This document shows positions 12,960 through 42,980 of a DNA stretch of 64,000 bases, one piece after another. The DNA is from Brachyspira alvinipulli ATCC 51933 (GTDB lineage: Bacteria; Spirochaetota; Brachyspiria; Brachyspirales; Brachyspiraceae). A program made the position numbers and the translations under genes. The notes under the pieces are model-generated. The model made no database searches. It was not told where the DNA came from and saw only the letters and a program-made list of their open reading frames with translations. Each line of letters opens with the position of its first letter. The first letter of the stretch is position 1. The stretch covers positions 1-64,000 of the forward strand of contig NZ_KI912408.1 in assembly GCF_000518245.1 (NCBI RefSeq). Reading direction: 5' to 3'.

Positions 12960-13913
12960 TTATTGCAAATTTCCTTGACAGCTGCTGCCCTCACCTGCCG
13001 TACATCCGTAGCAATAATCTTCTACTACTATATTATTATTCTTAAAATCATCAATAGTTAAATCTTTTATATATGAAGACTTACCATTTAAAGATGTTAA
13101 ATTTTTCATTTGATTAAAATCACAGTCATATACTTTACCGTCATAGCCTATATTAATAGTATTTAAACACATAACTTTATAAGCATTGGAAGCATTAAAA
13201 TTATCCTCAAGAAGCTGCATATAATTTTCATACTTATTATTTTTTTTAAGTTTTTCCTCAAATCTCCCTATAGGTATATTTGTAATAGTATATAAATTAT
13301 TAAATACTATATTATGTTCATTTTTTAAATGTTCTTTATAATCTTTTTCTAATTCCATTTGAGATGCTGGCAAATAATCATCAAGCGGATTATATACCAA
13401 ATTTATAATTAAATCTTTATCAACACCATATCCTACAGAGTTTAAATATTTAAGCATATCTATACATTTTTCATAAGTTCCGTTTCCTCTTTGCTCATCT
13501 ACATTTTCTTTTGTATAGCAAGGAAGAGAAGCAACCAACTCTACCCTATTGTTTTTAAAAATATCTATAAGCTCTTTTTTATCCTCCAAAATGGTTAAAT
13601 TAGTTCTTAATATGATTCTATTAACATTTTGTAATTTTCTAATATCTTCTATAAAATCAGATAAAAAATCACAATTTTCAGGAGCTCCTCCTGTAATATC
13701 CACATCTATTTCTTTATTGCAGTTTTTTATGAATTTAATACAATCATCAAGAACTTCTTTACTTATAGATTCATTTCTATTTTTACCCGCATCCACATGA
13801 CAATGAGAGCAATGCAAATTACAATTATATCCTGTATTAATTTGTACAGTCTCTATATCCTTCTTTTTTAATTCTATATTATATTTTTTTAAAGTTTCTG
13901 AAAAATGTGTCAT
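12960..13913 (-). CDS. arsS: ArsS-like radical SAM / Cys-rich domain enzyme
   Basis: The 317-residue protein has the radical SAM cluster motif C31-x3-C35-x2-C38 (GYNCNLHCSHCHVDAG), the glycine-rich TGGAPE strand, and the DUF3641-type C-terminus with MCLNTINIGYDGKVYDCDFNQM and a terminal Cys motif C301-x2-C304 followed by GEGSSCQG (C312). This combination identifies the radical SAM/selenodomain family (TIGR04167). A characterised member, ArsS, joins a SAM-derived deoxyadenosyl group to dimethylarsenite in arsenosugar synthesis. Some homologs carry selenocysteine; this copy has cysteines only. AAGGAG precedes ATG. It is last in a symporter-phosphoesterase-rSAM operon. The substrate here is inferred, not shown. 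Confidence 0.85.
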   Translation of the reverse strand: MTHFSETLKKYNIELKKKDIETVQINTGYNCNLHCSHCHVDAGKNRNESISKEVLDDCIKFIKNCNKEIDVDITGGAPENCDFLSDFIEDIRKLQNVNRIILRTNLTILEDKKELIDIFKNNRVELVASLPCYTKENVDEQRGNGTYEKCIDMLKYLNSVGYGVDKDLIINLVYNPLDDYLPASQMELEKDYKEHLKNEHNIVFNNLYTITNIPIGRFEEKLKKNNKYENYMQLLEDNFNASNAYKVMCLNTINIGYDGKVYDCDFNQMKNLTSLNGKSSYIKDLTIDDFKNNNIVVEDYCYGCTAGEGSSCQGNLQ

Positions 13914-13934
13914 ATTTATATACTCCTTAATTTT

Positions 13935-14849
13935 TTATAATATTTCAAAACCTTTTATTAATGCTTTTTCTATTCCATATTCAGTTCCGTTTACTATTCT
14001 ATCTCTGTATGATAAAGATGCCTCGCTTTCTAAAGGCCATACATCATCAAACCATTTTAAAAATTTATCATTATCATATATTACAGGAACAGCCTCCGCA
14101 TACAAATTATTTATCTTATCTCTATAAATAGCATTTTTATTTATAAAACTTGATATTCTTGTTATCAACCCGTAAATTTTTCCTTTAAAATTAGGCATGC
14201 CAGCTGCCCCATTATTTATTACTATACCATTTTTAAGCTTAACAGCAGCAGGAAAACAAGTATGAGTTGATGCTAAAATATTTATATTATTCTCTATAAA
14301 CCAGTTTTCAAGTTCCTCCTGTCTTTCCTCTTTCTCTAAATATTCAGCAGAACATTCCCATCCGCTTAACGATTTTTCATCTCCATGAGTTACAGCTATC
14401 CTTTGTCCCATCATTTCTAATACAATATCTTTATTTCTCTTTGATAAAATATTTTTATACTGAGGCAAATAATCCATAACCTTTTTGAGTTTTTCATGTA
14501 TAATATTGGATCTATTAACTATATCATCGGAAACATAACTCGGATATGAACATCCGCACCCCATATTTCCCTCTCTAAAAAGCTCTCTTTCAACATTTCC
14601 TAATAACTTCTGAGAATTTTCTGACATATCTTCTACCGCTTGAAAGTCTTCTGCTCTAATATCAAACCAATGCATATCCCCGTTAAATACAAGAAGAACA
14701 TCTTTTTCAGCTTTAGTCATATTATTTATTTCTTTTAAAGACTCTATGTTTCCATAAAGCCCTCCAATAATATATATTACAGGACTTTCTATAAATAATG
14801 AATTTTGAAATGAACTTTTGCTTAAATAATAATCAGACGGGCATGTCAT
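13935..14849 (-). CDS. Metallophosphoesterase-like protein
   Basis: A 304-residue protein with calcineurin-like phosphoesterase features: GGLYGN (29-34), NGDMH (56-60), THGDE (154-158), ASTHTC (193-198) and NNGAAG (212-217). The usual first motif DxH is GLYGN here, so one metal ligand may differ. There is no signal peptide, so it should be cytoplasmic. Its start overlaps the symporter stop by four bases (ATGA) and the radical SAM gene follows 21 bases later, so the three are translationally linked. In an arsenosugar-type pathway a phosphatase acting on a nucleotide or sugar phosphate intermediate is plausible, but this is inference from context. Confidence 0.75.
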   Translation of the reverse strand: MTCPSDYYLSKSSFQNSLFIESPVIYIIGGLYGNIESLKEINNMTKAEKDVLLVFNGDMHWFDIRAEDFQAVEDMSENSQKLLGNVERELFREGNMGCGCSYPSYVSDDIVNRSNIIHEKLKKVMDYLPQYKNILSKRNKDIVLEMMGQRIAVTHGDEKSLSGWECSAEYLEKEERQEELENWFIENNINILASTHTCFPAAVKLKNGIVINNGAAGMPNFKGKIYGLITRISSFINKNAIYRDKINNLYAEAVPVIYDNDKFLKWFDDVWPLESEASLSYRDRIVNGTEYGIEKALIKGFEIL

Positions 14850-16222
14850 ACTCTATCCTTTTTCACAATTATGCTCGGTATAATATAAGCCAGAAAGCAT
14901 AATATAGTTCCGTACAAATTTACGCCTAATAATAAAGCACTTTTTCCTTCTCCTATGCTAAATATTTTTGGAATTATTCCTATTGTATAAGCTATTCCTA
15001 ATAAAATACCTATCCAAAAACTTAAATGAAATCCTATTTTAGTAGGCTTAAAAACACCATGCAGTAAAAATATAGGCGAAAGCCCTATTACCATAGTACC
15101 GCTTATGGTTGTTGCAGCAAGTATATTAGTTCCAGCTATCATAGGCAAATTTCCTACAATAGCGAACAATACCATAACAATCATACCTGCAGCTCTGGCT
15201 TTATCCCCTAAATCTATACCCTTTATATTCGGCAAATCCTGAGCCGCTAATTTAGACAAACTTGAAAATGTAGAATCTAAAGTTGAACCTGCCGCAAATA
15301 TCATTAGCACTGCCATTAAAAGAAATGCAAATACGGACATGTTTTTAGCAACATCAGCAGGTACATTGCCGCTTAAAACTATATTTTCTAGTTTTGCATG
15401 TATTCCTATAAAGCTGAATATAAGTATAACAATAAAACCTAATATTCCAGATACTGCAAATGCTTTTAACATATCTTTCTCATCGGATATAAATCCCCTG
15501 TCTGTCAATACTGGATCATGAAACGGATAGCTGAATATTTGTATAAATGTTACAAGAAGCAAATCCACTCCCCCAGCTAAAGTCCAGCTTCCTGATGATA
15601 TATATTGATTCAAAGAATGCTTAGGTATTATCCAAACAGCAATAAAAATAAATATTATAACAAACAAAACAGTCTGTATAGTGTCTGTAATAATAGAACT
15701 TAATAATCCTCCTTTCATTGAGTATATTAAAGTTATTATTGTAAATATTGAAGCAGCTATTATAAAATTTGTGCTCCCGCCTGCTCCATAATAGCCACCT
15801 ATAACAGAAGAATTGCTCCAAATTTCGTTAAATAGTCTAATAAGTATTGCTGCAGAAAATGATAAAGCAGCTGCATTTCCATAATTATCTTTCAAAAAAC
15901 TGACAAGGCCTTTAGCATTATATTTTTTTCTTAATCTATATATAGCAAAACCTGATATCGGTATGCATAACCAGTATAATGCATATGCCGCACCGCCTAC
16001 AATGCCGTAAGCAGCGCCTAAATTTGCTGCATTCGTAACAGATTTTGCGAATATCCAGCTTATAAAAATACTTGACGTTAATATAAATGCAGAAGGTTTA
16101 TTGCCGTATTTATCCTCGCCGTTGAAAAAACTCTTAATAGTTAAAGCTTTCGGAGATAAAAGCGTCATTGTGACTCCGTATAAGCCTAGAAATCCCCAAA
16201 AAAATACAGATGTTAATTCCAT
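14846..16222 (-). CDS. Sodium:solute symporter family transporter
   Basis: 458 residues with about thirteen membrane segments and the layout of the SSS family (LeuT fold): an N-terminal helix, the SISW-like SIFISWIFAKSVTNAANLGAAYG region, MKGGLLSSIITDTIQT at segment five, and the PFHDPVLTDRGFIS loop. Such proteins use the sodium gradient to import sugars, amino acids, nucleosides or anions. The substrate cannot be read from sequence. As first gene of the operon with a metallophosphoesterase and the ArsS-like enzyme it may import a pathway precursor or move the product. AAAGG precedes the start. Confidence 0.85.
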   Translation of the reverse strand: MELTSVFFWGFLGLYGVTMTLLSPKALTIKSFFNGEDKYGNKPSAFILTSSIFISWIFAKSVTNAANLGAAYGIVGGAAYALYWLCIPISGFAIYRLRKKYNAKGLVSFLKDNYGNAAALSFSAAILIRLFNEIWSNSSVIGGYYGAGGSTNFIIAASIFTIITLIYSMKGGLLSSIITDTIQTVLFVIIFIFIAVWIIPKHSLNQYISSGSWTLAGGVDLLLVTFIQIFSYPFHDPVLTDRGFISDEKDMLKAFAVSGILGFIVILIFSFIGIHAKLENIVLSGNVPADVAKNMSVFAFLLMAVLMIFAAGSTLDSTFSSLSKLAAQDLPNIKGIDLGDKARAAGMIVMVLFAIVGNLPMIAGTNILAATTISGTMVIGLSPIFLLHGVFKPTKIGFHLSFWIGILLGIAYTIGIIPKIFSIGEGKSALLLGVNLYGTILCFLAYIIPSIIVKKDRV

Positions 16223-16246
16223 AAATAATTACCTTTATTAAAATCA

Positions 16247-16279
16247 GCATAAATCTATACTAAATTGATAGATTTATGC
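16247..16279 (-). promoter_or_regulatory. Leader hairpin or operator before the symporter operon
   Basis: Perfect 12-bp inverted repeat GCATAAATCTAT (16247-16258) and ATAGATTTATGC (16268-16279) with a 9-nt loop, about 25 bases before the symporter start. On the minus strand it is followed by GATTTTAAT, a weak U tract. It could be an operator for a dimeric regulator, an attenuator, or the end of the rhodanese transcript. Confidence 0.5.
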
Positions 16280-16415
16280 CAGTTTATAAATTAATTGATT
16301 TGTTATTAAAGTTATTAAAATTATAGATTCACGATCTAATTAGAATTAAATAAGAGGGATTTTATCCTTATAAAAAATTAAAAGAATGTATTTCATAATT
16401 AAATTCTGATTTTTA

Positions 16416-16844
16416 TTATTGAGCCAAAGCTTTAGAAAACTCATCATATCCTGCATTATTAAGGTTATTTATATTAGTAAAACCCAAATCAGCCATTATT
16501 TGAGAAGCCTGTCCTGAACGGTTGCCTGATCTGCAGAATATTATATATTCTCTGCTTTTATCTAATGAAGATACATTTTCTTTGAAGTCGGGTGCTTTAA
16601 AATCTATATTGGTAGCGCCTTCTATAGCACCTGTTTCTTTAATCTCATCTGGAGTTCTAACATCTATTAATATGATGTCAGGATTTGATTTCCATAAAGT
16701 TACTACTTCATCCACGGTTAAATTCTTATAGCTTGCAGCACTTTCTTTAGTTTCTGTCTGCTGCTGAGACGATGAAGATGAATTACTGCAGCTTATTATT
16801 AGTGAAAGCAAAACTATAAAAGAAATTATAATATTTTTTTTCAT
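16416..16844 (-). CDS. Rhodanese-domain lipoprotein
   Basis: 142 residues from ATG 16844, chosen because AGGAG lies just upstream and the signal peptide begins there; a longer frame to 16901 lacks these. Lipobox LIISC (C19), a Ser/Gln linker, then one rhodanese domain (about 39-142) with IDVRTPDEI and the active-site loop C104-RSGNRSG. Rhodanese folds carry persulfide sulfur, or bind oxyanions, on this cysteine. The protein would be anchored outside the cytoplasmic membrane. It sits between the two blocks of the radical SAM cluster, and a second membrane-bound rhodanese lies at 42474. The role in the cluster is inferred. Confidence 0.85.
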   Translation of the reverse strand: MKKNIIISFIVLLSLIISCSNSSSSSQQQTETKESAASYKNLTVDEVVTLWKSNPDIILIDVRTPDEIKETGAIEGATNIDFKAPDFKENVSSLDKSREYIIFCRSGNRSGQASQIMADLGFTNINNLNNAGYDEFSKALAQ

Positions 16845-16887
16845 AATAAAAAATTCTCCTTTTTTAATAAAATAAAAATTTTCATCT

Positions 16888-16915
16888 ATAATAACATACA
16901 AAGAATTATAGTCAA
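16888..16915 (-). promoter_or_regulatory. Rhodanese lipoprotein promoter
   Basis: On the minus strand TTGACT (16915-16910), 16-nt spacer, TATTAT (16893-16888), giving a leader of about 35-40 bases. Confidence 0.6.
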
Positions 16916-17037
16916 TAAAAAATTATTTCAAATAATGACAGCAAAATACTTTTAAATTAGTATTTTTCAATTTTTATAAATAAAAGTATTAAATGTAAAA
17001 ATTCATACTATAAAAGAAATATATTTTTCATACAATA

Positions 17038-17098
17038 CTTGATATTTTTATTTTTTTTGTTAATGTTCTTGATATTTTTATTTTTTATTGTTAATATT
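17038..17098. repeat. Tandem 30-bp duplication
   Basis: CTTGATATTTTTATTTTTTT followed by GTTAATGTT (17038-17067) is repeated with small changes at 17068-17098. The first unit has eight T where the second has TTTTTTATT. Confidence 0.65.
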
Positions 17099-17264
17099 AC
17101 GGTATTAACTTATTATTGGACCGCATATGTTAAAAATATATTCCAAAATAAAATTTAATACTTTCTTTAACAAACATAAATTCCCTCTCAAATAATTTAT
17201 TATAGTCCGTGAGACTTATATTTACAAATTCAATAAAAATTATAAAACCTAAATAAAATTTTTT

Positions 17265-17282
17265 ATAAACTCAGGAGTTTAT
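17265..17282 (+). promoter_or_regulatory. Palindrome enclosing the TVP38 ribosome-binding site
   Basis: ATAAACTC-AG-GAGTTTAT is a perfect 8-bp inverted repeat whose centre contains AGGAG, three bases before ATG 17285. As RNA it could form a small hairpin presenting or masking the site; as DNA it could be an operator. Confidence 0.4.
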
Positions 17283-17284
17283 TT

Positions 17285-18046
17285 ATGAAGCAATTCATAG
17301 TTGAAAATAAAAAATCGATAATAAAAAAAGTTGTTTTATTATTAATAATTGCATTATGTATATTATCATACTTTTTTATACCAGCAGTAAACAGGCAGCT
17401 TAATACAATATTCAAAATGTTTGCTACAGGCGATTTTAATGTTGTAAAAGAATTCGTGGCATCTTACGGGCATTATGCAATGGCTGTTTCATTTATACTT
17501 ATGGTTCTTCAATCTGTAGTAGCTCCATTACCTGCATTTTTACTTACATTTGCAAATGCTAATTTATTCGGCTGGAAAGCTGGGGCATTATTATCTTGGT
17601 CCAGTGCTATGGCCGGCGCTGCGGTATGTTTTTATATAGCTAGAATACTTGGAAGGGATTTTGTTGAAAAACTTACAAGCAAAACAGGGTTAAAACAAAT
17701 AGATGAATTCTTTGCAAAATACGGAAAACAAAGCGTTCTTATAGCAAGACTTCTTCCTTTCATCTCTTTTGATATAGTAAGCTATGCTGCAGGATTAACT
17801 TCTATGAATTTTTTAAGTTTTTTTATAGCAACTGGCATAGGACAGCTTCCTGCTACAATAGTTTATTCATATGTAGGAGGGATGCTCACAGGCGGAGCTA
17901 AACTATTTGTTACAGCTCTTTTAATATTATTTGCTTTATCTGCATTGATAATTCTATTAAGACAAATATATAAAAGCAGAAAAGATAAAGCTAATCTTGC
18001 AAATAATTTAGAAAAAAATATAGACAGCAATGAAATTGAAAACTAA
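17285..18046 (+). CDS. TVP38/TMEM64 (VTT-domain) membrane protein 1
   Basis: 253 residues with about six membrane segments and the SNARE-associated/VTT domain: PAFLLTFANANLFGWKAGALLSW, AVCFYIARILGRDFVEKL and RLLPFISFDIVSYAAGL are the conserved re-entrant and G-R-rich stretches of this family (relatives: DedA, YdjX/YdjZ). Members are thought to act as membrane transporters or lipid scramblases. AGGAG is just upstream. The next gene is a paralog and overlaps it by 17 bases. TVP38 genes are common beside radical SAM/selenodomain genes, which fits this neighbourhood. Confidence 0.88.
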   Translation: MKQFIVENKKSIIKKVVLLLIIALCILSYFFIPAVNRQLNTIFKMFATGDFNVVKEFVASYGHYAMAVSFILMVLQSVVAPLPAFLLTFANANLFGWKAGALLSWSSAMAGAAVCFYIARILGRDFVEKLTSKTGLKQIDEFFAKYGKQSVLIARLLPFISFDIVSYAAGLTSMNFLSFFIATGIGQLPATIVYSYVGGMLTGGAKLFVTALLILFALSALIILLRQIYKSRKDKANLANNLEKNIDSNEIEN

Positions 18047-18707
18047 ATACATTAAATTAATAATATTTATAATAGCTATTATTGCTATTGTTATAGTTAA
18101 TCATCATTATAAATTACATGATAAAATTCATAATTTTGATGATTTTAGATATATGATAGGCGATAATATTGTTAAAGCATCTATAGTATATATTGTCATA
18201 ACTGCTATTGGAAGTTCTGTATTAGCATTGCCTGGCATTACTTTTGCATTATTTTCTGGTATATTATTCGGTCCTATACTTGGGATTATATTATGCTCAA
18301 TATCCTCTACATTAGCTGCTATAATATCTTTTTTAATCTCAAGATTTTTCCTAAAAGATACAATAAAACCTCTTGTAGAAAAGAATAAATATTTAAATAA
18401 ACTTTTATTTGAGGACGGAAATAAAAATGCAATGCTGCTTTTAATGATTACAAGATTAGTTCCATTATTTCCGTATAATATACAAAATTTTGCTTACGGT
18501 ATAACGGATGTCAGTTTTATGCAGTATTCTATATACACATTTTTATTTATGCTCCCTGGAATATCTTTATTTACTATAGCATCTGTTGGAATAGTCTCTG
18601 AAAATAATAAATATTTATATTTTTCAATTGCCGCAATAATATTGGTGCTGGTATTGATTATATCATATTTTTTAAAAAGAAAATATGTGAATAATAAATC
18701 TATTTAG
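18030..18707 (+). CDS. TVP38/TMEM64 (VTT-domain) membrane protein 2
   Basis: 225 residues with the same VTT core: LALPGITFALFSGILFGPILGIILC, ISFLISRFFLKDTI and RLVPLFPYNIQNFAYGITDVSF. The start overlaps the previous gene by 17 bases, so translation is probably coupled. Having two VTT proteins in tandem recalls the YdjX-YdjZ pair of enterobacteria, where YdjY is also adjacent, and here a YdjY-type gene follows 27 bases later. This gene order is evidence for a shared function, though that function is not established. Confidence 0.88.
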   Translation: MKLKTKYIKLIIFIIAIIAIVIVNHHYKLHDKIHNFDDFRYMIGDNIVKASIVYIVITAIGSSVLALPGITFALFSGILFGPILGIILCSISSTLAAIISFLISRFFLKDTIKPLVEKNKYLNKLLFEDGNKNAMLLLMITRLVPLFPYNIQNFAYGITDVSFMQYSIYTFLFMLPGISLFTIASVGIVSENNKYLYFSIAAIILVLVLIISYFLKRKYVNNKSI

Positions 18708-18734
18708 TATATTAACATATTATGGAGTTATATT

Positions 18735-19454
18735 ATGAATAACAAAATTATTTTATTTCTATTATCTATACTTATGCTAATATCATGTAATAAACAATCA
18801 GCAGAGGAAAGTAAATACAATAACGGAAAATTAACTAATTCTATGGGAAGTGTAATATTAAGAGATGAAGGGGCTGTTCCTGCTGTTATAAATAATGATA
18901 AAAAAGAAGTAACAATAGAAGCTTTAGTTAATGGAAAATATTTTAATACCCCATCAAGACATCATGGAATAGTATTTAAAGGCGGCAAATATGGGGACAG
19001 AGGCTTATTGATAGGACTTACAGATGAAAGAGAATTTTATCAGGCATTAAAAGATATAGGATGTGTTGAAGGAAACAATTTAACTATAGAAGATATGAAG
19101 TTATCCAAAGCGGTTAAAGGCGAACCATTTAATGTATTTGTTACTTGGGAAGGATTAGGTAAAGAAATACCTTTTGAGGATATAATAAAATCTTCTGAAA
19201 ATAGAATGATGATAGTAAGATTCGGAGGAAATTTTGAGGCTGCTAAAGCAAGCAGAACTGGATGTATATTATGTCTTGACAGCTGTCCTATTGCTATAAC
19301 AAGTGACTCTTCATTTACTACAGCTGAACTTGAAAATAAAAAGATCGATAAATATTTGAGGGAAGATATAATGCCTGCTGACGGCAGTAAAGTATATGTT
19401 ATATTTAGGATGAAGCAATTAGACTGCTGTTCAGTAGCAATAAATAATGATTAA
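18735..19454 (+). CDS. YdjY-domain lipoprotein, copy 1
   Basis: 239 residues. Lipobox LMLISC (C18) and a short polar linker precede a YdjY-type domain with LTNSMGSVILRDEGA, RHHGIVFKGG, FVTWEGLGKEIPF and the cysteine cluster TGCILCLDSC. It differs from copy 3 by an extra pair of cysteines near the end (LDCC). YdjY proteins are annotated as ferredoxin-like, but the cysteines may equally bind a thiophilic metal. It follows the two TVP38 genes in the same direction with GGAG before ATG. Confidence 0.8.
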   Translation: MNNKIILFLLSILMLISCNKQSAEESKYNNGKLTNSMGSVILRDEGAVPAVINNDKKEVTIEALVNGKYFNTPSRHHGIVFKGGKYGDRGLLIGLTDEREFYQALKDIGCVEGNNLTIEDMKLSKAVKGEPFNVFVTWEGLGKEIPFEDIIKSSENRMMIVRFGGNFEAAKASRTGCILCLDSCPIAITSDSSFTTAELENKKIDKYLREDIMPADGSKVYVIFRMKQLDCCSVAINND

Positions 19455-19487
19455 AATATATTTATTTTATTTAAATGGAGTAAACAT

Positions 19488-20180
19488 ATGAATAAAAAAC
19501 TTATTTTAACTTTATTATTTATATCCATATTGGCATCATGTAATAAACAATCTTCTTCCTCACAATCAGAAAACACTGCAGTTAATGAAATCAAAGAAGA
19601 ATTAACCAATTCTATGGGAAGCATAATATTAAGAGATGAAGGTGCTGAGCCTGTTGTAATAGATATAGAAAAGAAAGAAATTATAGTTCCTGCAGAAGTT
19701 AATGGACAATATTTTAACTCTCCTACAAGACATGGGTTTGCATTTTATAAAGGACTTGTGGGCAATAAAGCTGTTTTAAGAGTTTTTCAGATGAAAGAGA
19801 ATTTTATCAGGCATTAATAGATATAGGAGCAGTACCCGGCAACAATTTAACTATGGAAGACATGAAATTAGAAAAAACAGTTGATGGTCAAAAATTAGAT
19901 GTATTTATTACTTGGGATGGTTTGGGAAAAGAAATACCTTTCTCTGATATAATAAGATCAGATGATGAAAAGACCTATGGAGATAAGATTCGGAGGTAAT
20001 TTTGAAGCTGCCAAAGCTAAAAGGACAGGCGGAATATTATGCCTTGATAGCTGCGCTATGGCTATAACAAGCGATGTTGCTTATGAGGCTGGGGTGCTGT
20101 TAATAGGAAGATACGGCAGAGAGGACGTACTTCCTGCAGACGGTACTAGAGTTTCTGTTATATTCAGAATAGCTGAATAA
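19488..20180 (+). pseudogene. YdjY-domain lipoprotein, copy 2, decayed
   Basis: The reading frame matches copies 1 and 3 from the signal peptide (lipobox ILASC) to RHGFAFYKGL. A one-base loss near 19783 (after AAGAG) shifts the frame and it stops at 19817. A one-base gain in an A run near 19970 shifts again, giving the in-frame tail MMKRPMEIRFGGNFEAAKAKR to 20180. A third lesion lies near 20095, where GAVEIKKIGRYG of copy 3 has become GVLLIGRYG, and the first cluster cysteine is glycine (TGGILCLDSC). Several independent lesions argue for real decay rather than a read error. Confidence 0.85.
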
Positions 20181-20220
20181 AAATTATATAGTTAGAATTT
20201 AAATTAATATTTTAAAATAA

Positions 20221-20272
20221 AAATTACGAGCACCATTCTTTAGAATGGTAGGTATTTATAAGCGGGTAATTT
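20221..20272. repeat. Interspersed hairpin repeat, copy 2
   Basis: An inner stem ACCATTC (20232-20238) and GAATGGT (20243-20249) is nested in an outer stem AAATTAC (20221-20227) and GTAATTT (20266-20272). It aligns with the element at the left window edge. It lies between the decayed and intact YdjY genes. Confidence 0.55.
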
Positions 20273-20298
20273 TTATGAATATATAAAGGAGCAAAAGT

Positions 20299-21000
20299 AT
20301 GAACAAAAAACTTATTTCAATTTTATCAGCATGCTTATTATTCATATTTATGTTAATATCATGCAGTAATCAATCATCATCAAACACTTCTTCTGCCAAT
20401 ACAGAATTAACTAACTCTATGGGAAGTGTAATATTAAGAGATGAAGGAGCTGAACCTATTGTAATAGATATAGAGAAAAAAGAGGTTATAGTTCCAGCAG
20501 AAGTAAATGGTAAATATTTTAATTCACCAACAAGACATGGTGTTGTATTTGATAGAGGTTCTAACGGCGACAAATCTGTTTTAAGAGGATTAGCTGATGA
20601 AAGAGAATTCTATCAAGCATTAATTGATATAGGAGCAGTGCCAGGCAACAATTTAACTATGGAAGATATGAAATTAGAAAAAACTGTTGATGGTCAAAAA
20701 CTTGATGTATTTGTTACTTGGGATGGTTTAGGTAAAGAAATTCCTTTCGCTAATATAATAAGATCTGATGATGAAAGACCTATGGATATTAGATTCGGCG
20801 GAAATTTAGAGAATGCTAAGGATAAAAGAACAGGATGTATACTATGTCTTGATAGCTGTGCAGTTGGTATAACTAGCGATGCTGCTTATGAAACTGGTGC
20901 TGTTGAAATCAAAAAAATAGGCAGATACGGAAGAGAAGATGTATTGCCTGCAGATGGTACTAGAGTTTCTGTTATATTCAGAATAGCTACAAATAATTAA
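20299..21000 (+). CDS. YdjY-domain lipoprotein, copy 3
   Basis: 233 residues with lipobox LISC (cysteine near residue 22), a Ser/Asn linker, then the YdjY-type domain: LTNSMGSVILRDEGA, NSPTRHGVVFDRG, EREFYQALIDIGA, FVTWDGLGKEIPF, DIRFGGN and cysteine cluster TGCILCLDSC. It is nearer to the decayed copy 2 than to copy 1. AAAGGAG precedes ATG. It is the first gene of a dense run (gaps of 20, 2 and 1 bases, then a few bases) that includes both glycosyltransferases of the radical SAM pathway. Confidence 0.82.
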   Translation: MNKKLISILSACLLFIFMLISCSNQSSSNTSSANTELTNSMGSVILRDEGAEPIVIDIEKKEVIVPAEVNGKYFNSPTRHGVVFDRGSNGDKSVLRGLADEREFYQALIDIGAVPGNNLTMEDMKLEKTVDGQKLDVFVTWDGLGKEIPFANIIRSDDERPMDIRFGGNLENAKDKRTGCILCLDSCAVGITSDAAYETGAVEIKKIGRYGREDVLPADGTRVSVIFRIATNN

Positions 21001-21020
21001 TAAAATAAAAGGATTGATAA

Positions 21021-21422
21021 GTGAAATATTTTGTTGCGTTATATAATACTTTTTTATGGGCTATGCTTATTGCTTTTATTATGTTTAAAAATGTATGGCT
21101 TGAAATGCGTGTTAATATAGGATTATGTTTTTTTGTAATATGGGCTTTATTATTTATAATATTTTCTTTTATTAATAATAAAAAACATATTTTTAAAAAA
21201 TATTTAATATTTTCACTTATCAATCTAGTTTTATGTTTCATATTAACTTTAATAATATTATCTCCATCAGCCATAGCATATACTCCATCTTCAATTGTAA
21301 GAGATGGTTTATTCATTTTTAGATCATTAAGGCTAAATTTAATAAATATTATATTGTCTATATTTATAATAGCAGGTATATTAATTATATCTGTTTCATC
21401 ATTAATAAAGAAAAGATCATAG
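21021..21422 (+). CDS. Small four-helix membrane protein
   Basis: 133 residues from GTG 21021, supported by AAGGA about eight bases upstream. Four hydrophobic segments and a basic C-terminus; no family recognised. It lies 20 bases after the YdjY gene and two bases before the glycosyltransferase gene, so it is almost certainly part of the same operon and may be a membrane partner of one of them. Confidence 0.7.
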   Translation: MKYFVALYNTFLWAMLIAFIMFKNVWLEMRVNIGLCFFVIWALLFIIFSFINNKKHIFKKYLIFSLINLVLCFILTLIILSPSAIAYTPSSIVRDGLFIFRSLRLNLINIILSIFIIAGILIISVSSLIKKRS

Positions 21423-21424
21423 CA

Positions 21425-22087
21425 ATGAAATCCAATGCTTTAATAATATTTACAAGAATACCAATCGCAGGTAAAACCAAAACTAGACTGCAAACAAAAT
21501 TACTGCCGGAAGAATGTGCTGATATACACAAATGTTTTCTAAAAGATATATATAAAAAAATGAAAGAACTAAAACATAATGACATTGATATTATTATATC
21601 TTATAATCCGGATGGAGATTTAAATATATTAAAAGAAATATTTTATGATGAAAAAATGTATATAAAACAGGCAGTAAATACTCCTAATGAAAATGATAAA
21701 ATTTATAATTCTATGAAAGAAATATTTTCTTTAGGTTATAAAAAATCTATATTAATAGGAACTGATATACCGGAAATAAGCAAAGAAAATATAATTGATT
21801 CTTTCAATTTATTGGATAATAATGATTTTGTATTCGGTCCTAGCTATGACGGAGGATACTATTTAGTTGGAATGAAAGAATACAATGATGTAATAGTTAA
21901 AACTAATAGCGGTACGCTTAATAATATTTTGAATGCTATAGAAAATATTAACTTGAAATATTCAATAATAGAAAAAAGATATGATATTGATGAATATAAT
22001 GATTTAATTGAATTGAATAATAGAATAAATAATAATAAAATAGAGTTAGAAAATACAAAGAACTTTTTTAAAAACATAGGATTGTAG
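21425..22087 (+). CDS. TIGR04282-type glycosyltransferase (rSAM/selenodomain transferase 1)
   Basis: 220 residues with a nucleotide-sugar transferase fold of the DUF2064 group. Signature stretches are the N-terminal IIFTRIPIAGKTKTRL (nucleotide binding), GTDIPEIS and FGPSYDGGYYLVGMK. The family is named after its constant association with ArsS-type radical SAM genes and is annotated as an arsenosugar-pathway transferase. The protein is cytoplasmic. It starts two bases after the small membrane protein and ends one base before the second transferase, so co-translation is likely. Confidence 0.88.
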   Translation: MKSNALIIFTRIPIAGKTKTRLQTKLLPEECADIHKCFLKDIYKKMKELKHNDIDIIISYNPDGDLNILKEIFYDEKMYIKQAVNTPNENDKIYNSMKEIFSLGYKKSILIGTDIPEISKENIIDSFNLLDNNDFVFGPSYDGGYYLVGMKEYNDVIVKTNSGTLNNILNAIENINLKYSIIEKRYDIDEYNDLIELNNRINNNKIELENTKNFFKNIGL

Positions 22088-22088
22088 G

Positions 22089-22769
22089 GTGTCTGTTTCT
22101 ATAATTATACCTATATTAAATGAAGAAAATATAATAGAGAGATTAATTAAAAATTTGAATGATTTAGAAGGAGAATTTGAGGTAATATTTTCTGACGGCG
22201 GAAGCAGAGATAAAACAGTTAATATAATAAAAAATATTAGTAATTATAAAATAGTTAATTCTAATAAAGGCAGAGCTAAACAATTAAATGCAGGGGCTAA
22301 AGAAAGTAAATACGATATACTTTTGTTTCTGCATGCTGATAGTATTATAGAAAAAGATATACTAACAAAGATAGAAAATTTCATTAAAAATAATAACAAA
22401 GCAGGATGTTTAAAAATCAAATTTGACAGCAATAAAATATTAATGCGTATATGCGGATTTTTATCTAATCTAAGAGTAAGGTTAAGACATATAGCATTCG
22501 GGGATCAGGGAATATTTATAGAAAGAAAATTATTTTTTGATATAGGAATGTTTGATGATATACCTCTTATGGAAGATTATAAATTATCAATAAAATTAAA
22601 GAAAATATCCCCTATTATAAATATTAATTCATATATAATTTCATCTTCAAGGCGTTTTGAAAAAAATGGAATTATAAAAACTATGATATATATGCAGAAA
22701 CTTCAGTATATGTTTAGAAATGGTGAAGATATAGAAAAAATAGCTAATATATATAATAATATGAAATGA
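22089..22769 (+). CDS. TIGR04283-type GT2 glycosyltransferase (rSAM/selenodomain transferase 2)
   Basis: 226 residues from GTG 22089, one base after the preceding stop, with AGGG as a possible binding site. It is a GT-A family-2 transferase: SIIIPILNEENII, FSDGGSRDKT, GRAKQLNAGA, the metal-binding LFLHADS and the family-specific FGDQGIFIER and PLMEDYKLS. This is the TIGR04283 pattern, normally paired with TIGR04282 and the ArsS-type enzyme. The paired transferases are expected to work on one sugar-containing product; the actual product in this organism is unknown. Confidence 0.88.
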   Translation: MSVSIIIPILNEENIIERLIKNLNDLEGEFEVIFSDGGSRDKTVNIIKNISNYKIVNSNKGRAKQLNAGAKESKYDILLFLHADSIIEKDILTKIENFIKNNNKAGCLKIKFDSNKILMRICGFLSNLRVRLRHIAFGDQGIFIERKLFFDIGMFDDIPLMEDYKLSIKLKKISPIININSYIISSSRRFEKNGIIKTMIYMQKLQYMFRNGEDIEKIANIYNNMK

Positions 22770-22777
22770 GGATTTTT

Positions 22778-23779
22778 ATGGAAATGCCTGATAATGTCAA
22801 AGACTGTATTCATTGTAATAGATGCGTAAAAAACTGCAGTTTTCTAACTAAATATAATATGGATTTAGAAGAGTATTCTAAGAGAGATGATTTAGCTTAC
22901 AATTGTTTTTTATGTAATGATTGTAAAATTGTTTGTCCTAAAGATATAGACGGGCATAAAATATCCTTATCATTAAGAAGCAGTAAGGCTGATAAAGATA
23001 TAGAAAAAAGAAAAGAAATTGAGCAAAAATATAAATTCTTATTGCTTGAAAAAAAAGACTATATTTTTAAAAACTATAATAATATAATCGGCAAATCTGT
23101 AATATTTCCAGGATGCAATTTTTCATCGTTTTATCCTGATGCATTAAAAAATATACTATATAAATTTAAGAAAGAATATAATATTGGTGTTATATTTGAC
23201 TGCTGCGGTAAGCCTATAGCTGAATTGGGTATAACAAATTATGAAAATGATATAATAAACAAATTAGAAAAAAACATGGCATTAAATGGAATAAAAGAAA
23301 TAATAACATTATGCCCTAATTGTTATTATTTTTTAAAACCTAGAATTAATATAAAAATTATAACCATATATGAAAAATTATATGAATTAGGATTAAAATT
23401 TAAGTTAAATAATAATGATGAACAAATAAATCTTTTTATACCTTGCCCTGATAAAGAATCAAAATATATAAAAAATTCTATATTAAATATTATTGATTTA
23501 GATAAAAATAAAATTAAAGATATAAATGATATTAATTGCTGCGGACTTGGAGGTTGCGCTATCGTTAATGAAAAAGAATTAGCGCAAGGATTTATAGAAA
23601 AATTGAAAAACAAAAATTTAGAAAATATATATGTTTACTGTGCCACATGTGCTGGTAATTTTAACAGGAATAATATAAAAAATATTCATCATATTTTGCT
23701 TGATATATTTAGTATGGATAATTATAATATAAAAAATAAAACTTCTTTATTAAGCAGAGCTATGTTTAAATTTTTTTAA
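22778..23779 (+). CDS. Fe-S / CCG-domain oxidoreductase (HdrD-like)
   Basis: 333 residues from ATG 22778, chosen because GAGGA lies five bases upstream; ATG 22766, overlapping the previous stop, is the alternative. Two [4Fe-4S] motifs (CIHCNRCVKNC and CFLCNDCKIVCP) are followed by two cysteine-rich CCG-type domains (CCGKPIAE, then CCGLGGC and CATCAG). This is the layout of heterodisulfide reductase D and related glycolate or lactate oxidase Fe-S subunits, which transfer electrons through special iron-sulfur clusters. It ends the dense operon with the two glycosyltransferases, so it likely supplies or takes electrons in that pathway. Confidence 0.85.
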   Translation: MEMPDNVKDCIHCNRCVKNCSFLTKYNMDLEEYSKRDDLAYNCFLCNDCKIVCPKDIDGHKISLSLRSSKADKDIEKRKEIEQKYKFLLLEKKDYIFKNYNNIIGKSVIFPGCNFSSFYPDALKNILYKFKKEYNIGVIFDCCGKPIAELGITNYENDIINKLEKNMALNGIKEIITLCPNCYYFLKPRINIKIITIYEKLYELGLKFKLNNNDEQINLFIPCPDKESKYIKNSILNIIDLDKNKIKDINDINCCGLGGCAIVNEKELAQGFIEKLKNKNLENIYVYCATCAGNFNRNNIKNIHHILLDIFSMDNYNIKNKTSLLSRAMFKFF

Positions 23780-42473: not shown

Positions 42474-42884
42474 ATGAATAATACAATGACTTTAATAATA
42501 GGCTTAATACTTACTTTTATAATATTAAGCAGTGTAAGAAGAATAATTTTCAATATAAAAAGCAGAGGAAAATTCAAAAATATAAATGTAAATGAAGCTG
42601 TTTCATTATATAAAAATAATAAAAATATTGTTTTGATAGATGTAAGAAGTTATATGGAAGTTCAGCAAAGCGAATATATAGTAAATAGTATAAATATTGC
42701 TTTGGATGATTCTAAATTTGAAGAAAAAATGTCAAAATTAGATAAAAATAAAGAGTATATAGTTTACTGTGCAAGCGGAAATCGTTCTGGTGCTGCATGT
42801 TTTCGTATGCACAAAATGGGATTTACTAACATTAATAACCTTACACGTGCTGGTTATTTTCAGCTTTCATCTGCTTTAAATTAA
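42474..42884 (+). CDS. Membrane-anchored rhodanese-domain protein
   Basis: 136 residues. One N-terminal membrane helix (about 5-23), then a single rhodanese domain with VLIDVRSYMEV and the active loop C99-ASGNRSG. It is similar to the rhodanese lipoprotein at 16416 (both have a VSLYK/VTLWK start and NINNL...AGY end) but is held by a helix rather than lipid. It has GAGGG before ATG. The sulfur donor and acceptor are unknown. Confidence 0.85.
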   Translation: MNNTMTLIIGLILTFIILSSVRRIIFNIKSRGKFKNINVNEAVSLYKNNKNIVLIDVRSYMEVQQSEYIVNSINIALDDSKFEEKMSKLDKNKEYIVYCASGNRSGAACFRMHKMGFTNINNLTRAGYFQLSSALN

Positions 42885-42980
42885 TTTATTTATACAGCTA
42901 ATTCTACTTGCATATAAATTGTTTTAATGATATTGTATATTTAAGGTTTTATATATAACAATAACAAGGATAAGGCTTTA

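Follow-up and report, generated by a model that had tools for sequence, protein, structure and literature searches.

Two divergent operons at the arsS locus

The locus occupies positions 12960–23779 of the window (the whole 64,000-nt stretch that we analysed, from contig NZ_KI912408.1 of Brachyspira alvinipulli ATCC 51933) and consists of two divergent operons. On the minus strand, arsS (12960..13913) encodes a radical SAM/DUF3641 protein that matched TIGR04167 with 396 bits in an NCBI profile search (cut-off 300; model positions 2–303 of 303). Alignment placed the radical-SAM CxxxCxxC cysteines at C31, C35 and C38 and revealed the C-terminal motif YCYGCTAGEGSSCQG; these three cysteines, as well as C301, C304 and C312, were invariant across the ArsS alignment. 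The ArsS-like enzyme with a terminal Cys motif reported in the initial annotation was thereby confirmed. No selenocysteine was seen in this protein: the motif contains Cys and the gene ends in an ordinary stop codon. The aligned residues of Brachyspira ArsS are the same as in ArsM-bearing species and in the ArsS–ArsM fusion proteins of three spirochaetes, which tie ArsS to arsenic methylation.

Next to arsS lies the gene of a phosphoesterase-like protein (MPE; 13935..14849, minus strand), which had no Pfam or NCBIfam match of its own. Its assignment to the calcineurin-like phosphoesterase fold rests on homologues that match PF12850 and on a moderate structural model (pLDDT 64, pTM 0.73; best Foldseek match SapH, 4e-7). 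Three of the seven canonical metal ligands (GDxH, GD, GN, H, GHxH set) are missing: in 39 of 39 homologues GDxH is changed to GGxY and the last His is absent, with the other four ligands retained and a Cys-Gly-Cys motif invariant. MPE is predicted to keep only one metal site. The metallophosphoesterase described earlier is supported as a fold but not as a normal enzyme. The adjacent gene (14846..16222, minus strand; 4-nt overlap with MPE) encodes a sodium:solute symporter-family (SSF) transporter. It scored 22.2 bits against PF00474, just below the gathering threshold of 22.8, and matched TIGR00813 weakly, but it falls in a sharply delimited family of its own, and it is 43–45% identical to flavobacterial ArsS-linked symporters. 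A PDB sequence search with the phosphoesterase and the symporter gave no convincing match. The last minus-strand gene encodes a rhodanese-domain lipoprotein (PF00581; 16416..16844, with the ATG start inferred inside a 16416–16901 ORF), with weak matches to several (seleno)protein rhodaneses.

The plus-strand operon is preceded by a conserved 22-codon leader ORF, MLKIYSKIKFNTFFNKHKFPLK (17127..17195); this leader, with the ending FFN-(K/N)-(H/Y)-KFPL-(K/Q), is common to eight of nine such operons in Brachyspira. Downstream of it is a conserved hairpin-like element, ATAGTCCGTGAGACTTAT (17202..17219, plus strand), with the consensus TAGTCCGTG(A/C)G(A/G)CTT in eight operons. Its exact core did not occur in 1.19 Mb of the remaining genome, nor did the element match Rfam, the scan of which returned tRNA only; signals in a promoter/terminator scan were at shuffle level.

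The operon itself, all on the plus strand, starts with two VTT (DedA/TVP38) membrane proteins (17285..18046 and 18030..18707; PF09335, 94 and 66 bits). Of the three YdjY lipoproteins listed initially, two are intact (18735..19454 and 20299..21000; NF040466, 117 and 148 bits), whereas the one between them, at about 19488..20180, is a pseudogene with at least two frameshifts and one motif Cys lost. Between YdjY and the glycosyltransferases, we found a gene for a 133-aa membrane protein without a family match (21021..21422), which was missing from the earlier gene list and is kept in all nine Brachyspira operons. The signature pair follows: a TIGR04282 CofC-like glycosyl-/nucleotidyltransferase (21425..22087; 137.5 bits, cut-off 134), which also matches TIGR03552 CofC (2.7e-10), and a TIGR04283 glycosyltransferase (22089..22769; 259.7 bits, cut-off 182). 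The last gene (22766..23779) encodes a dicluster ferredoxin with a CCG domain (HdrB/GlpC-like; PF02754), resembling positions 306–644 of NF045663 (diclust_near_Sec), a family named for selenoprotein neighbourhoods. Profile matches thus bore out the two VTT proteins, both glycosyltransferases (above the NCBI cut-offs), the rhodanese lipoprotein and the CCG-domain Fe–S ([4Fe–4S]) protein as annotated.

Distribution of the cluster and its partners

Among 26 Brachyspira genomes, nine carry the VTT–glycosyltransferase–CCG operon; seven of these have ArsS, which the remaining 17 genomes all lack. The rhodanese gene adjoins ArsS, or MPE and SSF, in all seven ArsS-bearing genomes, two of which have the symporter and phosphoesterase. 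YdjY was found in 10 of 326 spirochaete genomes, namely the nine operon-bearing Brachyspira and one other ArsS genome; eight of the ten are ArsS-positive (hypergeometric p = 1e-6, kinship not corrected). The block is not a fixed unit: in three Brachyspira genomes ArsS and rhodanese lie apart from the VTT–CCG operon, and in one near-closed genome the operon occurs but ArsS does not. In five of the seven ArsS-bearing Brachyspira, mtnA-mtnK (methylthioribose isomerase and kinase) lies directly 3′ of ArsS, with MtnA and MtnK over the cut-off in these five sister genomes and no aldolase at the locus. The pair is not beside the window ArsS and was not found in 1.26 Mb of that genome, window included.

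Outside Brachyspira, MPE adjoins ArsS in three Flavobacteriaceae and one betaproteobacterial MAG, as it does in the two Brachyspira. The symporter family occurred in 34 of 259 Flavobacteriaceae, as a single copy each; 33 of these 34 have ArsS, compared with 11 of 20 SSF-negative controls (Fisher p = 2.5e-4; one genome, G344, was entered from its ArsS locus L126). SSF adjoins MPE in 36 of the 37 genomes with the symporter family, ArsS lies inside the fetched 17–21 kb around SSF in 35 of them, and in the flavobacterial loci SSF is usually preceded by a SusC/SusD pair. In a second, separate set of ArsS genomes, SSF was found in 4 of 42, every time at the ArsS locus. The gene order SSF–MPE–ArsS of the window is identical in loci L132 and L146, where the MPE reading frame runs through a TIGR04169 gene; in L126 this gene lies between MPE and ArsS. 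Several SSF clusters include ArsM, so the symporter–phosphoesterase pair is not tied to a lack of ArsM, and we rejected the symporter as a substitute for it. A purine nucleoside phosphorylase (PNP) is linked to the flavobacterial ArsS clusters in place of mtnA-mtnK. TIGR04282 and TIGR04283 lie beside ArsS in many phyla, and VTT and rhodanese neighbours recur at ArsS loci of several; no YdjY or CCG homologues were near ArsS outside Brachyspira in the ArsS loci surveyed. In the ArsS tree, the Brachyspira sequences grouped as one clade on a long branch, outside that of the Flavobacteriaceae. A recent transfer of the block from the sampled flavobacteria is therefore not supported, with the long Brachyspira branch and skewed composition as caveats.

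ArsM, which normally starts the pathway, is absent not just from the window, as noted earlier, but genome-wide at the thresholds applied, and indeed from all 26 Brachyspira (NF008823 at 1e-25, NF038099 at 1e-6). The TIGR04169 peroxidase-like partner was likewise absent from the 26 genomes at 1e-6, as it is from many other ArsS loci, and SusC/D was absent from the Brachyspira set. No evident source of arsenic is left, and without ArsM we do not claim that the locus belongs to a complete arsenosugar pathway. The earlier reading of the missing ArsM as a sign of a non-arsenosugar product is not supported, since 24 of 41 ArsS-bearing spirochaetes lack it too. A literature search on Brachyspira and arsanilic acid returned nothing on arsenic, and another found no text in the library searched that links arsenosugar to Flavobacteria clusters or SusD.

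Proposed pathway and alternative explanations

Judged from sequence, the Brachyspira locus is a variant ArsS gene cluster with a putative substrate. The initial annotation had assigned the whole block to one pathway. This stands in so far as the symporter and phosphoesterase occur together with ArsS, and at its locus, in a further phylum as well, and YdjY tracks the ArsS/glycosyltransferase operon across spirochaetes. By its own terms the annotation would have been refuted by homologues of these added genes that never co-occur with the radical SAM gene in related genomes, and it passed this test. The symporter and phosphoesterase are very probably partners in an ArsS-family pathway, and the chances that its product is an arsenosugar appear about even. 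Our preferred explanation, to which we assign a probability of roughly 60%, is an ArsS-pathway cluster in two divergent operons that would work as follows, although any individual later step is doubtful. In the ArsS reaction, a trivalent main-group substrate would receive the 5′-deoxyadenosyl moiety of SAM, giving 5′-deoxy-5′-X-adenosine. The likeliest substrate would be dimethylarsenic(III), taken from outside because the cell lacks ArsM, and the symporter could import it or a related organo-element compound. Adenine would be removed and 5-X-ribose converted to its 1-phosphate, by MtnK in the sister species and by the linked PNP in flavobacteria; both linkages are compatible with conversion of the ArsS product into a 5-substituted ribose-1-phosphate. 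MPE, with one predicted metal site and two gained cysteines, probably has a phosphorylated thiophilic intermediate as its substrate or ligand. Activation of the sugar may fall to the CofC-like TIGR04282 protein and its transfer onto an acceptor to TIGR04283, and the VTT, YdjY, rhodanese and CCG proteins would contribute membrane and thiol/redox functions. Several findings speak against this explanation: ArsM, TIGR04169 and SusC/D are missing from the Brachyspira set, the symporter–phosphoesterase pair occurs in two of the seven ArsS-bearing Brachyspira genomes, mtnA-mtnK does not adjoin ArsS in the window, one genome has the operon but no ArsS, and no YdjY or CCG homologues lay near ArsS in the loci surveyed outside Brachyspira.

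The separate ArsS–rhodanese loci and the operon without ArsS (genome G022) could suggest that the two operons are unrelated chance neighbours. We consider this very improbable given the strict co-occurrence in Brachyspira and TIGR04282/TIGR04283 beside ArsS in many phyla, and the symporter–phosphoesterase–ArsS linkage conserved in Flavobacteriaceae led us to reject it. An unlikely but more serious alternative is that ArsS acts on another element (selenium, sulfur or antimony) to give a non-arsenical 5-substituted riboside. The lack of ArsM across Brachyspira and in most ArsS-bearing spirochaetes would fit, as would the NF045663-like CCG protein, the weak (seleno)protein matches of the rhodanese and the surroundings of YdjY in E. 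coli, with a pair of DedA proteins, a rhodanese and an AhpD-like protein. Conversely, the ArsS residues are those of ArsM-bearing species and fusions, and spirochaetes with ArsS have ArsM more often than those without (17 of 41 versus 39 of 285, p = 7e-5).

The cluster could also serve salvage, with organo-arsenic sugars or nucleosides imported (by SusC/D plus symporter in flavobacteria, by the symporter in Brachyspira) and degraded via a DHAP-shunt-like path of MtnK, MtnA and aldolase, turning a dimethylarsinoyl sugar into dimethylarsinoylethanol. The published ArsS chemistry forms a C–As bond, and the glycosyltransferases indicate synthesis; nor is there an aldolase at the locus or mtnA-mtnK beside ArsS in the window genome. 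The SusC/SusD–SSF–MPE gene order in flavobacteria, mtnA-mtnK 3′ of ArsS and the missing ArsM favour salvage, as do two published observations: the DHAP shunt converts 5′-deoxynucleosides to DHAP and an aldehyde, in kinase and phosphorylase variants (PMC10986504), and thio-dimethylarsenoethanol has been reported in urine as a metabolite of arsenosugars (PMC6656958). On balance, we regard salvage as improbable, on a par with the other-element reading.

A more speculative reading, for which the odds are low, is an uptake-and-conversion branch of organo-arsenic metabolism. Here a dedicated sodium symporter, accompanied in marine Bacteroidota by SusC/SusD, and the one-metal CGC phosphoesterase relative would supply ArsS with methylated arsenic or arsenosugar from outside, and methionine-salvage-type enzymes would handle the 5-arsino-ribose as its 1-phosphate. 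If true, gut spirochaetes without ArsM would have a route to arsenosugar or dimethylarsinoylethanol, through a branch previously undescribed. The symporter–phosphoesterase–ArsS cassette in two phyla provides candidate transport genes, and the ArsS–mtnA-mtnK and ArsS–PNP linkages are candidates for the nucleoside-to-sugar-phosphate step, suggesting that animal gut anaerobes may process organo-arsenic from food.

Comparison with known systems

The DHAP shunt (mtnK-mtnA-ald2) shares MtnK and MtnA with the ArsS loci of five Brachyspira, but there is no aldolase at these loci, and mtnK-mtnA is not in the window. In E. coli ydjXYZ-ynjABCDE, DedA/VTT proteins also flank YdjY, with a rhodanese in the same gene run, but ArsS and the glycosyltransferases are absent and an ABC transporter takes the place of the symporter. 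Compared with the NCBIfam ArsS/TIGR04167 arsenosugar clusters, Brachyspira lacks ArsM and TIGR04169, has the additional YdjY, CCG and 133-aa membrane proteins and, in the sister species, mtnA-mtnK; ArsS and both glycosyltransferases over the cut-off, and the rhodanese and VTT neighbours, are common to both. The Flavobacteriaceae supercluster (AhpD-ArsS-GT-SusC-SusD-SSF-MPE-rhodanese-GT-PNP-(ArsM)-DUF547-GT; loci L199–L226) has SusC/SusD, PNP, ArsM, DUF547 and AhpD, which the Brachyspira locus does not, and a distant ArsS clade, yet the two share the symporter (43–45% identity), the odd metal site of MPE, the rhodanese and the glycosyltransferases.

Gene content of the block across Brachyspira

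On the minus strand of the window, the transcription order is rhodanese lipoprotein, symporter, phosphoesterase-like protein and the radical SAM protein ArsS (TIGR04167), with a 4-nt overlap between the symporter and phosphoesterase genes. The plus-strand operon runs VTT, VTT, YdjY, YdjY pseudogene (at least two frameshifts, one motif cysteine gone), YdjY, a 133-aa membrane protein, the glycosyltransferases (GTs) TIGR04282 and TIGR04283, and a dicluster/CCG protein; ArsS and both GTs passed curated cut-offs. A further rhodanese-like ORF lies at 42531–42944 (42% identity to the cluster rhodanese, E 4e-26).

ArsS was present in 7 of 26 Brachyspira genomes and the VTT-YdjY-GT-CCG operon in nine, namely the seven ArsS-positive ones plus G022 and G083. 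The nearly closed genome G022 keeps the operon (locus L075, 8301–13182) with neither ArsS nor the leader ORF described below; the G083 contig stops right past the rhodanese gene, limiting its ArsS call. The ArsS-rhodanese pair is separate from the operon in G078, G088 and G113. YdjY was detected in 10 of 326 spirochaetes: the nine operon-bearing Brachyspira and the ArsS-positive G020, where it adjoins a VTT gene. Among Brachyspira, symporter and phosphoesterase occurred only in the window genome and G103, placed between rhodanese and ArsS, and the phosphoesterase was not found in the other 324 spirochaetes.

Upstream of the first VTT gene, eight of the nine operons keep a 22–23-codon ORF ending FFN-(K/N)-(H/Y)-KFPL-(K/Q), followed by TAGTCCGTG(A/C)G(A/G)CTT, which is able to form a small hairpin. 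In the window, this ORF (22 codons, ending KFPLK) and the hairpin-like TAGTCCGTGAGACTTA element occupy 17127–17219. The exact core of the element was not found in 1.19 Mb of remaining genome, and no Rfam family corresponded to it. The leader probably acts in cis.

The symporter–phosphoesterase linkage

In a set of 80 ArsS loci taken from other genomes, symporter and phosphoesterase were close to ArsS in four, all from Flavobacteriaceae; in three of these they lay upstream of ArsS and on its strand, which is the arrangement of the window. A betaproteobacterial MAG carried a strong homologue of the phosphoesterase (35% identity), flanked by ArsS on one side and VTT/GT genes on the other. The symporter family is sharply delimited (34 of 259 Flavobacteriaceae, single copy per genome). 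ArsS was found in all symporter-positive Flavobacteriaceae except G606, versus 11 of 20 symporter-negative genomes tested (Fisher p = 2.5e-4; here and below, p values of co-occurrence counts ignore kinship). G606 holds the lowest-scoring family member and also lacks the phosphoesterase; by eye, this diverged symporter (L240, 13244–14620), with no ArsS or phosphoesterase, apparently sits amid aromatic/phenylacetate-type genes. Of 37 symporter loci, 36 had the phosphoesterase next to the symporter, 35 had ArsS within the sequence fetched, 34 had SusC and 33 had SusD. The fuller flavobacterial cluster reads AhpD(TIGR04169)-ArsS-GT-SusC-SusD-symporter-phosphoesterase-rhodanese-GT-PNP-(ArsM)-fatty-acid-hydroxylase-like-DUF547-GT, its rhodanese being NF045521 ('rhoda_near_glyco') and its purine nucleoside phosphorylase (PNP) passing NF006054. 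A large ArsS supercluster that includes SusC/SusD, symporter, phosphoesterase, PNP and DUF547 is conserved across Flavobacteriaceae (loci L196–L227).

The seven Brachyspira ArsS proteins formed one fully supported clade outside the Flavobacteriaceae clade, in a tree with skewed composition and a long Brachyspira branch (1.2 changes per site). The shared linkage is therefore ancient or has evolved repeatedly, and either origin favours a function.

All 39 phosphoesterase homologues carry GGxY where the first metal motif, GDxH, would stand, and all lack the final histidine, whereas D58, N85, H155, H196 and C98-G99-C100 (window numbering) are invariant. Relative to standard enzymes, only one of the two metal sites is predicted to remain. 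AlphaFold gave a model of moderate confidence (pLDDT 64, pTM 0.73), which Foldseek placed among phosphoesterases such as SapH and VPS29. The protein belongs to an altered but conserved subfamily and is not a decaying gene.

Arsenic methylation and known pathways

The initial annotation had read the lack of the arsenite methyltransferase ArsM in the window as a hint of another product. ArsM was not found in any Brachyspira (NF008823 at 1e-25, NF038099 at 1e-6). In spirochaetes, ArsM is enriched with ArsS (17/41 vs 39/285, p = 7e-5), and three encode natural ArsS-ArsM fusions of ∼680–706 aa (L051, 6612–8729; L052, 10003–12039; L061, 8587–10662), tying ArsS to arsenic methylation in general. Neither model matched in 24 of the 41 ArsS-bearing spirochaetes, so genomes without ArsM are commonplace and its absence has no diagnostic value. 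The block is genuine and coherent in function, a variant ArsS gene cluster that lacks ArsM, and the proposal that all 11 kb serve one pathway is strengthened.

In five sister Brachyspira (G078, G088, G103, G113 and G151), mtnA and mtnK directly follow arsS on the same strand (TIGR00512, 431 bits; TIGR01767, 501 bits; L037, 2791–5151; L039, 2909–5269; also L035, L036 and L038). The pair is absent from the ArsS locus of the window genome and was not found in the 1.26 Mb read (∼37% of that genome). MtnK in Brachyspira and PNP in flavobacteria may each turn the ArsS product into a 5-substituted ribose-1-phosphate. This difference parallels the DHAP shunt, which exists in nucleosidase-plus-MtnK and phosphorylase forms (PMC10986504). 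The E. coli run ydjX-ydjY-ydjZ-ynjA-ynjBCD-ynjE (L302, 4402–11775) combines DedA, YdjY, AhpD-like and rhodanese proteins, the same mix as in ArsS clusters.
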